Source: Wenzhouxiangellaceae bacterium (GTDB lineage: Bacteria > Pseudomonadota > Gammaproteobacteria > Xanthomonadales > Wenzhouxiangellaceae). Taken from it: DNA of 33,107 nt. The translations under genes and the position numbers were made by a program. The stretch is taken from the NCBI GenBank assembly GCA_007135395.1, contig SLIZ01000142.1, positions 1-33,107 on the forward strand, given 5' to 3'. The notes below the pieces were generated by a model that saw nothing but the letters and a program-made list of their open reading frames with translations, made no database searches and was not told where the DNA came from. Shown piece by piece: positions 13,258 to 18,714 of the stretch (its first letter is position 1; the number at the start of each line of letters is the position of its first letter).

Positions 13258-13385
13258 CGCCCGATTGGCCCGGGTATCCCCTCGGTCCGGGCCGGTTTTC
13301 GGTGCTGCTTGCTGGAACCCACACAGCCCACTTTTCGCCGGATCGCCATACAATCAAGCCCTGATCACCCCAGGGAGTGCTGTCC

Positions 13386-14627
13386 GTGACCCGTTCCGAA
13401 TACATCCGCCCGGTCGCCGCCGACCAACGCCTGGAGCACCTGGATATCCTGCGTGGCTTTGCCCTTCTCGGCATCCTTGCAGTCAACATGGAGTATTTCA
13501 CCCGGCCGATACTGGTCATCGCCCTGGGCGGGGACCCGGGGCTCAGTGGCCCGGACCGGGCTGTAGACTGGGCGATCGGCGCCCTGGCCGAAGGCAAGTT
13601 CTACGCCCTGTTTTCGGTGCTTTTCGGGGCCGGCTTCGCTCTCCTTTGGGAGAAATCGGCCGCTGCCGGCGGGGGGTTTTACGGACTGTATCTGCGCCGG
13701 CTCGGGATTCTTGCTCTTATCGGTCTGGCCCACGGCACCCTGGTGTGGTCCGGAGACATCCTGCTGGTCTATGCACTGTGCGGGTTCGTGATGACCTTGT
13801 TGTTCAGCCGCACAGCCGTATCCCGCCTGCCCAAGTGGATGGTGGTGTTCGTAGCCGTTCCGGTGGTGCTCAACTGGTTGTTCCTGATCTCCTTTGAGAT
13901 GTCGAAGGCTGATCCGGCAGGCCATGAGAACCTGCGGGAAATGCTGGCAACCAACAAGGCCAGCCTGGCGGCGAAAATCGATAAGGCCGCCGGCGTTTAC
14001 GGGGCCGGCTCCTGGCTGGAGGTTACCGGCCAGCGGGTAGCGGATTTCCGCTACACCGTCTCCCATGCCCTGTTCTGGGTTCCGCCGGTGCTGGGTTTCT
14101 TCCTCCTCGGACGCTGGCTGATGGCCTCGGGCAAATTGCGCGACCCGGATGGCAGCCACCGCTTCTTCCGTCGCTGGACGGCCATTGGTTTCCTGGCCGG
14201 AGGAACTCTCAGTCTTGCCGGGTATTGGCTTCAGGCCGGCCACTCCCTGCAGTTGCCGTCGATCGAGCTGGCCCTGGGCTCCACCCTGATGGCCGCCGGT
14301 GCGCCCCTGCTGATGCTGGGTTTTCTCAGCCTCGTTGTCCGGACACGCCGCAGCCTTCGATGGCTTGCTCCGACCGGACGAATGGCGCTGACCAACTACC
14401 TCCTGCAGTCGCTGTTCTGGAGCACCTTTTTCTATGGCTACGGACTGGGAATGTGGGAACAGATTCCCCGGGTCTGGCACCCGGTACTGGCCGCGACCTT
14501 CTTTGCCTTGCAGGTACTGTTCAGCGGCTGGTGGATGGCCCGCTTCCGGTTCGGACCTGCCGAGTGGCTCTGGCGCAGCCTGACCTACATGAAATTGCAG
14601 CCCATGCGGCCGTCTTGGGGTGATTAG
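13386..14627 (+). CDS. DUF418-domain integral membrane protein (YeiB-like)
   Basis: About 413 residues with roughly ten hydrophobic helices. The N-terminal RLEHLDILRGFALLGILAVNM is the hallmark of the DUF418/YeiB group. The C-terminal part (about 230-400) contains the GRMALTNYLLQS motif of DUF418, followed by helices containing FFALQVLFSGWWMARFRFGPAEWLWRSLTY. The function of the family is not firmly established; members resemble acyltransferase-3-type membrane proteins and some act as transporters. GTG 13386 is preferred because GGGAG (13373-13377) sits 8 nt upstream; GTG 13377 in the same frame would overlap that site. A TACAAT at 13349-13354 may be its -10. Confidence 0.9.
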   Translation: MTRSEYIRPVAADQRLEHLDILRGFALLGILAVNMEYFTRPILVIALGGDPGLSGPDRAVDWAIGALAEGKFYALFSVLFGAGFALLWEKSAAAGGGFYGLYLRRLGILALIGLAHGTLVWSGDILLVYALCGFVMTLLFSRTAVSRLPKWMVVFVAVPVVLNWLFLISFEMSKADPAGHENLREMLATNKASLAAKIDKAAGVYGAGSWLEVTGQRVADFRYTVSHALFWVPPVLGFFLLGRWLMASGKLRDPDGSHRFFRRWTAIGFLAGGTLSLAGYWLQAGHSLQLPSIELALGSTLMAAGAPLLMLGFLSLVVRTRRSLRWLAPTGRMALTNYLLQSLFWSTFFYGYGLGMWEQIPRVWHPVLAATFFALQVLFSGWWMARFRFGPAEWLWRSLTYMKLQPMRPSWGD

Positions 14628-14685: not shown

Positions 14686-14714
14686 TTGCTTTTCGGCCTG
14701 TTTGCCAGTAATGT
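14686..14714 (+). promoter_or_regulatory. Promoter of the EAL-DUF6502-GTG-repeat operon
   Basis: TTGCTT (14686-14691) and TAATGT (14709-14714) are 17 bp apart. The predicted transcript starts near 14721, inside the palindrome at 14712-14723 that overlaps the end of the -10. The stretch before it (14628-14685) contains only a GC-rich imperfect hairpin around 14640-14660 with no T-tract. Confidence 0.55.
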
Positions 14715-14734
14715 CAATTGACAGGATTGTCAAA
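14712..14734. promoter_or_regulatory. Palindrome TGTCAATTGACA plus extra half-site (operator candidate)
   Basis: A perfect 12-bp palindrome at 14712-14723 is followed, four bases later, by a third TGTCAA copy (14728-14733). It overlaps the -10 and transcript start of the three-gene operon. The position suits a repressor site, but no regulator can be named. Confidence 0.5.
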
Positions 14735-14747
14735 CGGGAGCATCCTA

Positions 14748-15503
14748 ATGAAAATTGCGGCCAATGATGTCGCACCGGGCATAAGAGACCAGATCGGTTT
14801 CTACTCGCCACTGGAGTGTGCGATTGCCCGCCAGGAAATCGTGCCGATCAACGAACTGGAAAGGTCGCGTTCGAAATGGTGGGAGTTTCTGGCCCGCCCG
14901 ACAGGGATCTACGGAAACCTCACGCCGCCGGATTTCGTCCAGATGGCCTATGGCGAACTCCCGGCATTCCGATTCGACCGAATGATGTGCGACCTGGCCA
15001 TCGACTGGCTGGCCGGCAAGGGGCCGGACGACCGAGTCAGCGTCAATGTCCATCCGCTGGCGCTGACCGACTCCACATTCATTCACCATATCCTGAGATC
15101 CGTCGAATTCGCCGGTCTCAAGCCGGGCCAGATCTGCCTTGAGCTGCTCGAAAACCGCATCCCCGAAGAAGTGGCTCCACTGCGATGCGGAATGGAAAGG
15201 CTCAAGGCCAATGGAGTGCTTGTAGCCATTGATGATTTCGGGCGGGGTGCCGGCCAGATTCCTCTTTGCAGTACCGGGCTGATCGAGATCATCAAGATTG
15301 ACCGGTCACTGATTGCACCCCTGGTTCACTCGAAAAGCCACAGAAATCTGCTCACCGGGCTGGTCTCCATGGCCGAACATACCGGTTGCCGACTCGTCGC
15401 CGAAGGGGTCGAGAGCCGGGCCGTACTTTCCATGGTGCAGGATTCCGGTCTGCATTACGCACAGGGGTTCGCTATCCATTCACCTGAAGTCGTGGATATC
15501 TGA
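14748..15503 (+). CDS. EAL-domain protein, probable c-di-GMP phosphodiesterase
   Basis: This 251-residue protein is a stand-alone EAL domain with no membrane segment or sensor domain. The signature is EFL instead of EAL (E46). Other catalytic and metal-binding positions look intact: N100, E132, D162-D163 (IDDFG), K183/D185 (IKIDRS), E222 (EGVES) and Q239 (YAQGF). It can therefore be expected to hydrolyse c-di-GMP to pGpG, or to bind it. ATG 14748 has GGGAG (14736-14740) 7 nt upstream; an in-frame upstream start at 14718 would lie inside the promoter. It leads a three-gene operon; the DUF6502 gene starts 16 nt after its stop. It is more complete catalytically than the two EAL proteins at 23145-24823. 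Confidence 0.88.
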   Translation: MKIAANDVAPGIRDQIGFYSPLECAIARQEIVPINELERSRSKWWEFLARPTGIYGNLTPPDFVQMAYGELPAFRFDRMMCDLAIDWLAGKGPDDRVSVNVHPLALTDSTFIHHILRSVEFAGLKPGQICLELLENRIPEEVAPLRCGMERLKANGVLVAIDDFGRGAGQIPLCSTGLIEIIKIDRSLIAPLVHSKSHRNLLTGLVSMAEHTGCRLVAEGVESRAVLSMVQDSGLHYAQGFAIHSPEVVDI

Positions 15504-15519
15504 ATCTTTAGGAGAAACC

Positions 15520-16356
15520 ATGACCACGAATGTTCGCAATATTTCCCGTTCACCGGACGTAAGCTGGCTTGTTGCAGCCCTTCGCCGGATTCTCCGGCCC
15601 GTGATTCGGCTGTGTGTTGGGAGACTCTCATGCCCGAATCTGGTTGCCGTGGTCCGGCAGTTGTATATCGAGGAGGGGCGCAGAGAGCTTAGCCGGCAAA
15701 ACAATGGCAAACAGACAAAGTCAGCCCTTTCGCTCCTGACCGGCCTGGATTACCGGGCCATTGAGGGCATCGAGAAAGAACAAGGCGATCAGTTCGAATC
15801 ATCCGATATCTCGCCGGAGGCCAGCATTCTTTCGACCTGGTATCGCGAAGAAACCTTTCGTGATCCGGAAACCGATGCACCCCGGTTACTGCCGGTTCTG
15901 GGCAAGGGAATCACCTTCCAGACCCTGGTCATGCGCTGTGCCGGGCGCAGTGTGACGGCCCATTCGGTACTTCAGAAATTGCTCGACAGCGGCAATGTGG
16001 CGATGACCGAGGATGGCCAGGTGGAATTGCGCGAATGGGTTTACTTCCCGTTCAGCCAGTCCCAACAGGCGACCTTCGAAATCCTCTCGGCTTCCTGGTC
16101 GAGACTCGGCAAGGCGGTTACCCACAACGCCACGGAAGATCTTGACCCGGACGACCGCTGGCTTCAGCAGGACCGATGGACCCATCGACTACCGCCGGAA
16201 AAGCGCGAGCAATTTCGCAAGGACCTCAGGGCCCTGCTCGAATCACACATCGTGGAAGCAGAAGAGGTCATGGAAGAATTCGAAGCACCGGTCCAGCAGT
16301 CCAACCATATCTGTGCAGGAGTGGGCTGGTACTACTGGGAAGAACCGGAAGAATAA
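15520..16356 (+). CDS. DUF6502-family protein with N-terminal helix-turn-helix-like region
   Basis: The 278-residue cytoplasmic protein matches my memory of DUF6502. A helical start (RRILRPVIRLCVGR) leads to NLVAVVRQLYIEEGRRELS and a winged-helix-like SALSLLTGLDYRAIEGIEKEQ (about 70-90). A middle region with RLLPVLGKGITFQTLVMRC and a C-terminal acidic helical part (EAEEVMEEFEA) follow. The N-terminal pattern suggests DNA binding, but no function is established for the family. AGGAGA lies 6 nt before the ATG. It is sandwiched between an EAL gene (16-nt gap) and the GTG-repeat gene (36-nt gap) in one transcript, so it may be the regulator or adaptor of the system. Confidence 0.82.
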   Translation: MTTNVRNISRSPDVSWLVAALRRILRPVIRLCVGRLSCPNLVAVVRQLYIEEGRRELSRQNNGKQTKSALSLLTGLDYRAIEGIEKEQGDQFESSDISPEASILSTWYREETFRDPETDAPRLLPVLGKGITFQTLVMRCAGRSVTAHSVLQKLLDSGNVAMTEDGQVELREWVYFPFSQSQQATFEILSASWSRLGKAVTHNATEDLDPDDRWLQQDRWTHRLPPEKREQFRKDLRALLESHIVEAEEVMEEFEAPVQQSNHICAGVGWYYWEEPEE

Positions 16357-16378
16357 TTTGTTACACCCAATTAACGCC

Positions 16379-16386
16379 TAAGGAGG
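16379..16386 (+). promoter_or_regulatory. Very strong Shine-Dalgarno (TAAGGAGG)
   Basis: A full eight-base match to the anti-Shine-Dalgarno lies 6 nt before the ATG at 16393. It is the strongest ribosome-binding site in the window and suggests the repeat protein is made in excess over the two proteins encoded before it. It also fixes the start codon upstream of the IEKxGTG repeats. Confidence 0.8.
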
Positions 16387-16392
16387 CAAGTC

Positions 16393-17169
16393 ATGAATGA
16401 AGTTTCAACCAGCACGATGAGCTCCCTGATTGAAAAGCAGGGCACCGGAATCGAAAAGCAAGGAACGGGAATCGAGAAGCAAGGAACCGGTATCGAAAAA
16501 TCCGGTACCGGCATCCGGCGGGGTCTCCGGCTGGGTCTTGCCAGCGCCATCTGCCTTTTTACAGCAGTGGCCTGGACAGGCGCTTTGGCTTCATCGCCTT
16601 CCGCAAGTATCGCAATTGACGATGGCCAGTTCGAGCTTTCCGTCAAACTTTCCAGTGAGCAAGTCGGTGGCCAATCCGTCCTCGACTCCGGCTACGGCAT
16701 GGTCACGCTTGTCAATGGTTCCGGTACCGGCGCTTTGACCAACGGTGATTCCGACCCGGTCAACGGTTCGGGTACCGGCGCCTCAACCGATGGTGAAACC
16801 GACCCGGTCAACGGTTCGGGTACCGGCGCCTCAACCGATGGCGATTCCGACCCGGTCAACGGTTCCGGTACCGGCGCCTCAACCGATGGCGATTCCGACC
16901 CGGTCAACGGCTCGGGTACCGGCTCTTCAACCGATGGCGATTCCGACCCGGTCAATGGTTCCGGTACCGGATCTTCGACCAATGGTGAAACCGATCCGGT
17001 CAATGGTTCCGGTACCGGTGTGGCCGGCTCCGGCGACCCGATTGCCTCGGACTTCTGGGGTGTGGCCGAAGTGGCCGTTGATGACGATGTGGCCTACGTG
17101 GTGGTCTACCAGCTTACCAGTGAGGGACTGGTCGAGCACTCCACCTATTCCATGAATTTGACCCGGTAA
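16393..17169 (+). CDS. Exported or membrane-anchored protein with two Gly-Thr-Gly repeat arrays
   Basis: I do not recognise a named family for this 258-residue protein. Residues 13-40 are four tandem heptapeptides IEKxGTG. After a basic RRG, a hydrophobic segment (about 45-66) ends in GALAS, fitting either a signal peptide with an unusually long N-region or a single N-in membrane anchor. Residues 67-104 are a small Ser/Gln-rich domain. Residues 105-214 hold six 16-residue repeats of the type DPVNGSGTGxSTDGDS plus a partial seventh, rich in D, N, G, S and T. A compact strand-rich tail (215-258) follows, containing VAEVAVDDDVAYVVVYQL. The acidic repeats resemble flexible, possibly Ca2+-binding linkers (inference). 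It is the last gene of the operon, before a strong terminator. Confidence 0.8.
   Translation: MNEVSTSTMSSLIEKQGTGIEKQGTGIEKQGTGIEKSGTGIRRGLRLGLASAICLFTAVAWTGALASSPSASIAIDDGQFELSVKLSSEQVGGQSVLDSGYGMVTLVNGSGTGALTNGDSDPVNGSGTGASTDGETDPVNGSGTGASTDGDSDPVNGSGTGASTDGDSDPVNGSGTGSSTDGDSDPVNGSGTGSSTNGETDPVNGSGTGVAGSGDPIASDFWGVAEVAVDDDVAYVVVYQLTSEGLVEHSTYSMNLTR
16429..16512 (+). repeat. Four 21-bp tandem repeats encoding IEKxGTG
   Basis: Four in-frame 21-bp units encode IEKQGTG three times and IEKSGTG once. Third codon positions vary between units, so selection appears to keep the protein sequence. The fourth unit contains the decamer CCGGTACCGG, which is also characteristic of the downstream 48-bp repeats. 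Confidence 0.9.
16705..17034 (+). repeat. 48-bp tandem repeats (six full units plus one partial)
   Basis: The units start at 16705, 16753, 16801, 16849, 16897, 16945 and 16993. They encode 16-residue repeats. The third and fourth units differ at a single base in 48, indicating recent slippage or gene conversion, while outer units carry more synonymous changes. Each unit contains one GGTACC, spaced exactly 48 bp apart (16723 to 17011). Copy number may vary between strains and could be miscounted in an assembly. Confidence 0.93.
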
Positions 17170-17199
17170 AGTATTTACGACAGTTGACGTGGGGCTTGC

Positions 17200-17229
17200 A
17201 AGGCCGCCTGGAAACAGGCGGCCTTTTTT
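17200..17229 (+). terminator. Strong intrinsic terminator after the GTG-repeat gene
   Basis: A perfect 11-bp stem (17200-17210 with 17215-17225) closes on a GAAA tetraloop. The run of T residues at 17224-17229 follows directly. It ends the three-gene operon 30 nt after the last stop and separates it from the convergent hydrolase gene, whose stop is at 17242. Confidence 0.93.
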
Positions 17230-17241
17230 ATTCCTGAACCA

Positions 17242-18714
17242 TCACTCGATTTTGTGGCGGGCCAGCTCCAGGCGTACTGCGGCCTTTTTCAGTCCGCCTG
17301 TGGTGCATGGAAGATCCAGCACCTGCTCGCACCGCCCCTCGTCATCCGGCTCCAGTGCAAGGCTTCGGGTTCGGATCGCATCGTCGGAATCGCCAAGCCC
17401 CCACCGTAACCGGCTGCTCCCGTCAACACCCAGATCGCCGATTCCGATCACCATGGCAATATCGAAAAGCGCCTGACCGGCATACAGGGTATCCCGGCGA
17501 ATCAGTCCCTGGCGAACATAACGGGGCACCAGCCGAAAGCGAAGGTGAAAATGGGAGTAACGACCTCGACGGGTCTTTCGTGCCGGGATTAGAAAACTTT
17601 CGAAAATCGTCTCTCCATGCCGTTCCAGTTCCCCGGGTTCAATATCCTCGGCTGAAAGATACTCTTCACGGCGCTGGTGAACATGGACCGGCAGACCCCG
17701 GATGGCGATCTCGCTTTCCAGCAGAACAAATTTCAGGTCTTCAAACCCGTCCCAGTCCCGGTCGAAAGCAACGTTGGTCAAGGTAAGCTTGACCCGGGTC
17801 GTGCCAAAAAGAAACCGCTCCAGGTTCTGGAATCCTTCCTCGGAATTGACAATTCCCAAGGGCCCACTGTGGGCCCGGTGAACATAGGCCCGGGCACTTC
17901 CCTTTACATAGGCGTTACGAATCTGGACCAGTCCATCGCTTTGACTGCCCACCGCCCGCCTGGACCAGCCCCTGGCTACATCGTAATCAGCCGGATTGGT
18001 ACCGATCAGGGAAAAAACACGGGAGGGGGGGAAGCTCCCGCCAAGCTCGTGGAGCCTGTCGGCGGGAAAGTCCTCGTCGAAACCCAGGTACTCCCGCATT
18101 CTTCGGGCACCAAAAGTATCGGCATCGTAACGACCAAACAGGTCCCGGACCGCTTCACCGATACTGAAAATGTGCTGAAAGGAAATACCCTTGTGGGGGG
18201 TGCCAAAAGTAAAGATCCGCCCGATCCGCCGGGTGGCCCGGCCATCCGCCCAGGTACGCTGAACCAGTGATCTGCAAATCAGTCCGCCCATGGAATGGGC
18301 GACCAGGTCAACCCGGTCGACCCCGCTGCTGGCACGCACAAGATCCACCAGGCTTGCCAGGTTCTCGGCCAACTCTTCGATCTTCAGGCGCTGGCCGGTG
18401 CCCAGTTCCCGGGAAGTGTCGTCGTAGTAGCGATAGATCACCAGGGACTTGTCAGGCAGCTTCTCCGGGGTCTTCGGCTGGTTGAGAAACTCGATGCGGG
18501 AGTCATCAATATGGCAGAAATAATCCTGGTAGCCGTGGTCACGCAACAGGCGAACCAGGGGGCTTTCGAAGATCAGTAATTCCGCATTCCGGTCCGGGCC
18601 CGTCCGTACCCGGGTCGAGCCGACGTTGAAACCGTAGTAGGGAAGGTCCACCGTATTCTCGATGGCCGAGTAATTGCGGGAGTAACCCCGGACATAGATG
18701 ATGGGTCGCGCCAT
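17242..18714 (-). CDS. Alpha/beta hydrolase, lipase/PGAP1-like
   Basis: The product has 490 residues and no signal peptide. The first half is an alpha/beta-hydrolase: IIYVRGYSR near the N-terminus, the nucleophile elbow AHSMGG with S141, then candidates D260 (SQSDGLV) and H282 (HRAHSG) for the rest of the triad. The arrangement resembles esterase/lipase proteins of the PGAP1/LipA type acting on acyl esters; the substrate is unknown. The second half (about 300-490) is an unassigned beta-rich region with paired basic/aromatic strands (FHLRFRLVPRYVR) that could be a C2-like or jelly-roll domain. GGGAGG lies just before the ATG. It is the last of three consecutive minus-strand genes, 84 nt after its neighbour. 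Confidence 0.85.
   Translation of the reverse strand: MARPIIYVRGYSRNYSAIENTVDLPYYGFNVGSTRVRTGPDRNAELLIFESPLVRLLRDHGYQDYFCHIDDSRIEFLNQPKTPEKLPDKSLVIYRYYDDTSRELGTGQRLKIEELAENLASLVDLVRASSGVDRVDLVAHSMGGLICRSLVQRTWADGRATRRIGRIFTFGTPHKGISFQHIFSIGEAVRDLFGRYDADTFGARRMREYLGFDEDFPADRLHELGGSFPPSRVFSLIGTNPADYDVARGWSRRAVGSQSDGLVQIRNAYVKGSARAYVHRAHSGPLGIVNSEEGFQNLERFLFGTTRVKLTLTNVAFDRDWDGFEDLKFVLLESEIAIRGLPVHVHQRREEYLSAEDIEPGELERHGETIFESFLIPARKTRRGRYSHFHLRFRLVPRYVRQGLIRRDTLYAGQALFDIAMVIGIGDLGVDGSSRLRWGLGDSDDAIRTRSLALEPDDEGRCEQVLDLPCTTGGLKKAAVRLELARHKIE

Follow-up and report, generated by a model that had tools for sequence, protein, structure and literature searches.

We describe here a three-gene operon in a contig of a Wenzhouxiangellaceae bacterium (Gammaproteobacteria; Xanthomonadales; GenBank assembly GCA_007135395.1, contig SLIZ01000142.1, positions 1 to 33,107); the whole of these 33,107 nucleotides is called the window below. 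Its genes encode an EAL-domain protein, a predicted phosphodiesterase of cyclic diguanosine monophosphate (c-di-GMP), a DUF6502 protein and a predicted exported protein with GTG repeats. The pair of DUF6502 and an adjacent exported partner carrying a short G[ST]G motif recurs across Gammaproteobacteria and, by analogy, resembles the pair of the regulator HetR and its RG[ST]GR peptides, which suggests a widespread, undescribed peptide-sensing switch. Our favoured explanation, held at slightly under even confidence, is that DUF6502 may be a HetR-like autoregulator that binds DNA, with the exported partner's G[ST]G motif as its ligand. A broader proposal, held somewhat more tentatively still, is that DUF6502 may form a widespread, undescribed HetR-like class outside cyanobacteria that senses the partner's G[ST]G peptide, which here would have been multiplied and wired to a phosphodiesterase.

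HetR with its RG[ST]GR peptides (PatS, HetN and PatX) is a textbook example of bacterial pattern formation, acting in the filaments and heterocysts of cyanobacteria. Literature searches turned up neither a HetR relative reported from organisms other than cyanobacteria nor a functional paper mentioning DUF6502. If DUF6502 is HetR-like and its ligand is encoded next to it, peptide-gated regulation of the HetR type would extend far more widely than cyanobacteria, a role open to testing would be assigned to two unannotated families, DUF6502 and DUF5666, and culturable Wenzhouxiangella would allow the c-di-GMP link to be tested. The genes and motif arrays are as follows.

14748-15503, + strand: EAL gene, predicted stand-alone EAL-domain c-di-GMP phosphodiesterase, 251 amino acids
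15520-16356, + strand: DUF6502 (PF20112) gene, 278 amino acids, predicted fold closest to HetR
16393-17169, + strand: GTG-repeat gene, predicted exported product, 258 amino acids, directly downstream of DUF6502 in homologous loci
16429-16518, + strand: four tandem IEK[QS]GTG units in the n-region, ahead of the hydrophobic core of the signal peptide
16711-17022, + strand: seven NGSGTG units, modelled at low confidence (disordered) as an insertion that separates the two beta-sheet halves

The G[ST]G motif in exported partners of DUF6502

In a class-level sample of 229 genomes spread over Gammaproteobacteria, DUF6502 was found in 63 and DUF5666 (PF18914) in 60, and 52 genomes carried both (Fisher p 8e-32); DUF6502 is present in other Pseudomonadota too. 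The gene downstream of DUF6502 typically encodes a lipoprotein with GGIGGTGIS, GGETGTG, GIDGTGI or GISGSGI at its mature N-terminus, in some cases as multiple copies. The pattern xxG[ST]G occurs in 55 of 62 exported genes directly after DUF6502 in this class (shuffled windows: mean 16.9, maximum 31), and a strict form of the motif in 50 of them (mean 5.1, maximum 12). DUF5666 proteins inside DUF6502 loci carry the motif in 22 of 28 cases, those without it being mostly the upstream paralog, and unlinked DUF5666 paralogs in 1 of 13 (Fisher p 2e-5).

The window DUF6502 protein is a member of the same family (46.2 bits against a PF20112 cut-off of 27, residues 16-233) and, as in the DUF5666 lipoprotein loci, has an exported G[ST]G protein encoded after it. 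In the window lineage the lipoprotein of these loci is replaced by a repeat protein whose motifs stand ahead of the signal peptide, and an EAL gene is added. That the repeat protein is exported, one of the two options (exported or anchored) of the first-pass annotation of this DNA, agrees with a signal-peptide-like stretch, ending in ALA before SS, which follows the four N-terminal units and precedes the NGSGTG units. Related exported partners are built in the same way, with IEKxGTG units, a signal peptide and then a small beta domain that Gly-rich G[SNGAD]G[TS]G repeats interrupt; in the model of the window protein, confidence is high for both beta halves (residues 70-108 and 221-255) and the repeats are disordered. 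Between N-terminal units lying within the same gene we counted 1258 synonymous and 121 non-synonymous codon differences (random expectation 16 to 47). Since these units differ almost solely synonymously, the peptide sequence is what is conserved.

Two IE[KR]xGTG units in tandem were sought by an unbiased pattern search in the DNA of 84,980 species; the 19 loci that matched all belong to Gammaproteobacteria and all lie beside DUF6502. At one of them (L105) the upstream DUF6502 gene lies beyond the fetched end and was seen in the apparently corresponding locus L125. Likewise, all of the best 30 order-level GTG loci stand directly after DUF6502. An IEKSGTG query across the class gave weak matches at most outside the order; families labelled f2 and f12 also gave low-scoring matches. 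In a DUF6502 tree, the labels of which are incomplete, GTG-type sequences fall together in a single group with support of 99/96. Exported partners at five other loci (L240, L243, L244, L246 and L253) have tandem GIGGTG or GFGGTG units at the N-terminus; multiplication of the motif also arose outside the window lineage. A marked expansion is seen in G002, a genome of the same family with 12 DUF6502 matches, where several of the copies are followed by small exported proteins in which the xxGTG motif occurs one to three times.

Three further ideas on the repeats were set aside. A known fold for the GTG-repeat protein was rejected, as the best PDB match was not below E 0.38. The residue preceding GTG gave a suggestion of covarying between N- and C-terminal repeats in some proteins; this was dropped, EKSGTG accompanying either GGGTG or GNGTG. 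A viral origin was rejected because the tandem motif was not found in viral contigs.

Promoter and putative operators

14686-14714, + strand: operon promoter, with -35 box TTGCTT (14686-14691), a 17-nucleotide spacer and -10 box TAATGT (14709-14714)
14702-14717, no strand: putative operator 1, TTGCCA-gtaa-TGTCAA, overlapping the -10 box; conserved element TTGNCA-N4-TGNCAA
14718-14733, no strand: putative operator 2, TTGACA-ggat-TGTCAA, abutting operator 1

The first-pass annotation had reported a sigma70-like promoter overlapped by a palindrome. The overlap by palindromes stands, and the promoter itself has been reread as TTGCTT-N17-TAATGT at the positions above. The palindrome TGTCAATTGACA is the junction between two tandem 16-bp inverted repeats, TTGCCAgtaaTGTCAA and TTGACAggatTGTCAA. 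Their length is similar to that of the HetR operator, a partially palindromic 17-bp site with a gggN5ccc core.

Upstream regions of 28 EAL-DUF6502 operons and of a solitary EAL gene in the window genome were compared, and the arrangement TTG[AC]nn-N17-TA[ACT][TC]GT was present in 20 of these 29 (shuffled mean 0.07, maximum 1); a generic promoter scan gave one site, not above chance expectation. Of the 16 Wenzhouxiangella-type regions, 13 agree with TTGCCA-N4-TGGCAA in at least 10 of its 12 positions, against a mean of 0.36 and a maximum of 3 after shuffling. Because both patterns were derived from the operons compared, their statistics are partly post hoc, and the count over the whole window genome is the more independent test: TTGNCA-N4-TGNCAA occurs seven times and a reversed-pattern control once. 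Three of the seven sites precede the two EAL genes of this subfamily, two in the window promoter and one at the second EAL gene. Against this, with a stricter pattern one operator site was scarce in six other genomes. The second EAL gene, solitary on contig C178 (L264:3104-3925), has the same promoter and double operator upstream and is likely a second member of the regulon.

Operons of family f8, which are without an EAL gene (L065, L071, L087-L100), have their own common promoter, TTGAAAA...CTATCCTA, upstream of DUF6502. In some of these regions there is an inverted repeat, for example CCTGTTCGAG/CGAACAGG, that differs from the Wenzhouxiangella operator; the window operator was sought in f8 loci and rejected, the f8 repeat being a different site.

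Comparison of DUF6502 with HetR

An HTH-like (helix-turn-helix) N-terminus had been suggested for the DUF6502 protein and is seen in its AlphaFold2 model (predicted local distance difference test 77, predicted template modelling score (pTM) 0.48), followed by a winged-helix-like middle and a C-terminal helix-strand-helix. In PDB, HetR takes each of the top five Foldseek places for this model (E 3e-4 to 3.5e-3, probability 0.98-1.00); like the model, it joins an N-terminal HTH to a C-terminal alpha-beta-alpha domain. A 102-sequence DUF6502 profile aligned to HetR by hhalign scored 36.8, while 218 decoys and shuffles had a mean of 14.5 and a maximum of 25.6, and subsets of GTG-only and of other DUF6502 sequences also put HetR first. 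Standing above the decoys, this lends weak support at the level of sequence profiles. The HetR sequences were checked and corrected against PDB chains; a search for HetR relatives on plasmids, meant to deepen the HetR profile, found none, and a genome search with PF03574 was uninformative, as no control genome gave a match. Profiles and models together are suggestive of a relation to HetR that is remote and not proven.

The aligned part covers HetR residues 185-275, namely, the flap end and most of the hood. Both folds have been described as novel (PMC4649674), and the hood binds XRGSGR or ERGSGR peptides against strand b3, for which E253 is needed (PMC4649674); RG(S/T)GR is present in PatX of all HetR-containing cyanobacteria (PMC7761841). 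The DUF6502 segment aligned to b3 is a near-invariant QQxRW[TS] in the GTG-type and QRKVxYDN in canonical members, a split paralleling that of the partner motifs, KSGTGI and GIGGTGI. Conservation extends to the last segment, GxGWYxW or GxGIYYF. The two systems share a cognate protein with a short G[ST]G peptide motif. They differ in that the motif beside DUF6502 is IGGTGI or KSGTGI rather than RG[ST]GR, that the ligand-like gene lies directly downstream in one operon, and that its product is exported, often as a lipoprotein, with tandem motif copies. DUF6502 also differs in occurring in Pseudomonadota, in having an EAL gene added, and in giving no Pfam or hidden Markov model match to HetR.

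On the explanation we favour, the locus would be an autoregulated operon around a regulator-ligand pair. Through its N-terminal HTH, DUF6502 would bind the tandem TTGNCA-N4-TGNCAA operators that overlap its own promoter, as well as the operator at the second EAL gene of the window genome, and would either repress or activate its operon. The G[ST]G motif of the partner would modulate it via the C-terminal, hood-like domain. The canonical ligand would be one or a few motif copies near the N-terminus of the exported partner, and that of the window lineage the tandem IEKxGTG units ahead of the signal peptide. These units would be exposed to the cytosol while export takes place or afterwards, so that the regulator could sense the amount of partner made or exported. 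The EAL protein, an addition of some lineages, would link the switch to hydrolysis of c-di-GMP.

Several results weigh against this explanation. The TM-scores of the HetR matches are 0.33-0.38, and with the pTM of 0.48 this means that the global superposition of HetR and DUF6502 is poor. A profile of canonical DUF6502 sequences alone fails to beat the decoys (HetR at rank 66), hmmsearch with 20- and 49-sequence profiles did not find HetR in PDB, and PF03574 and PF18460 both match HetR and neither matches DUF6502 proteins. The acidic PatS-binding (Arg-binding) residues of HetR, E253, D256 and others, are absent, the aligned DUF6502 positions being W220 and R223, and the partner peptides, although they have a DUF6502-associated G[ST]G core, are without the flanking arginines of RG[ST]GR; the absence of the acidic residues does fit motifs without arginines. 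In canonical partners the motif follows the lipobox, outside the cytoplasm, so that a route back into the cell is needed for the ligand. The partners at L078, L079 and L245 have no N-terminal motif; that of L245 repeats GISVGD in place of G[ST]G, possibly a different ligand motif. The operator is not conserved in families f5-f8.

The sequence similarity of DUF6502 to the HTHs of CylR2 and phage repressors equals any other match, and this, together with the hmmsearch result, would suit an ordinary HTH autoregulator unrelated to HetR, with G[ST]G a structural or processing feature hitchhiking with the operon. We consider this improbable: three kinds of partner (GTG-repeat proteins, DUF5666 lipoproteins and tiny exported proteins) share only the motif, and DUF5666 homologues away from DUF6502 are without it. 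An alternative that we rate as unlikely, though deserving more weight, is that DUF6502 serves as a dedicated cytosolic chaperone or export escort recognising G[ST]G in its partner before secretion, its HTH-like part binding DNA secondarily or not at all. The genes are tightly coupled, DUF6502 often overlapping its partner by 4 bp (28 of 62 class-level pairs at gap -3), the motif occurs in the direct partner and rarely elsewhere, and the IEKxGTG units lie before the signal peptide, in the cytosol. Against an escort stand the HTH-like N-terminus, HetR as best fold match, and the conserved tandem operators at the promoter of an operon in which DUF6502 is the sole DNA-binding candidate.

Conservation of the operon and the EAL gene

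The presence of the EAL, DUF6502 and GTG-repeat genes between a promoter and a terminator is confirmed. The gaps are 16 nucleotides (EAL/DUF6502) and 36 nucleotides (DUF6502/repeat gene), and these together with the Shine-Dalgarno sequence and the terminator agree with the earlier description; judged from spacing and the common promoter and terminator, the three genes probably share one transcript.

16380-16386, + strand: Shine-Dalgarno sequence AAGGAGG of the repeat gene, 6 nucleotides ahead of the ATG of this third gene
17200-17225, + strand: intrinsic terminator, 11-bp stem followed by a T run

Gene neighbours were compared at DUF6502 loci taken from 25 of 61 related genomes. Families f1 (to which Wenzhouxiangella belongs), f5, f6 and f7 have the order EAL-DUF6502-GTG, on one strand and with small gaps, and the genes on either side vary. 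The operon thus behaves as the self-contained cassette it had been taken for, and the three genes occur together beyond close relatives, in at least four families of the order. Later searches added operons in G006, G012, G016, G020, G022, G026, G032 and G034. The idea that EAL belongs to the core of the cassette did not hold, as family f8 and genome G002 have DUF6502 and the GTG protein without it. Among the best 30 order-level GTG loci, the EAL gene is present in all 11 from f1 and absent from all 19 from f8, and because of this the DUF6502/GTG pair is regarded as the core and EAL as an accessory of some lineages.

The window EAL protein matches PF00563 (E 7e-35). It was proposed to be catalytically complete, and all nine residues are indeed present (E46, N100, E132, E135, D162, D163, K183, E219 and Q239), so that profile and residues predict a c-di-GMP phosphodiesterase. 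Its best match in related genomes that have the operon and give a match is the operon EAL. The catalytic set is complete as in the stand-alone phosphodiesterases RocR, PvrR and YahA/PdeL, but the protein belongs to a distinct subfamily (30-37% identity between family members), has no receiver or HTH domain and is encoded with DUF6502.

The first-pass annotation had envisaged a c-di-GMP-controlled surface cassette, with EAL setting the c-di-GMP level, DUF6502 passing it on and the GTG-repeat protein acting as a structural effector of envelope or matrix. The conserved gene order and the retention of E, N, ExxE, DD, K, E and Q in 23 of 23 operon EALs are in its favour, and exported low-complexity repeats of variable length resemble surface spacers. 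Nevertheless, this carries a low probability in our judgement, as in f8 and G002 the pair of DUF6502 and GTG protein is stable with no EAL gene, which also holds class-wide with DUF5666 lipoproteins, no c-di-GMP-binding signature was seen in DUF6502, and the repeat-protein model has no PDB match. An abundant surface effector and c-di-GMP as input are not supported, and the evidence points to a HetR-like regulator instead. An EAL-domain protein linked to an exported repeat protein also recalls the LapD-LapG-LapA type. The operon differs from it in lacking an inner-membrane HAMP receptor with degenerate EAL, the LapG protease and a large adhesin; its EAL protein is soluble, catalytically complete and 251 amino acids long.

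Elsewhere, the EAL gene ahead of DUF6502 is shortened and apparently decaying in one locus (L055:4527-4964), and DUF6502 stands alone in several Wenzhouxiangella loci (L051, L053, L057 and L059); apparently, loss of the cassette is in progress there. The window operon is flanked by two genes outside the conserved unit, which by eye encode a DUF418-like membrane protein (13377-14627, + strand) and, convergently, a lipase-type alpha/beta hydrolase (17242-18714, - strand).

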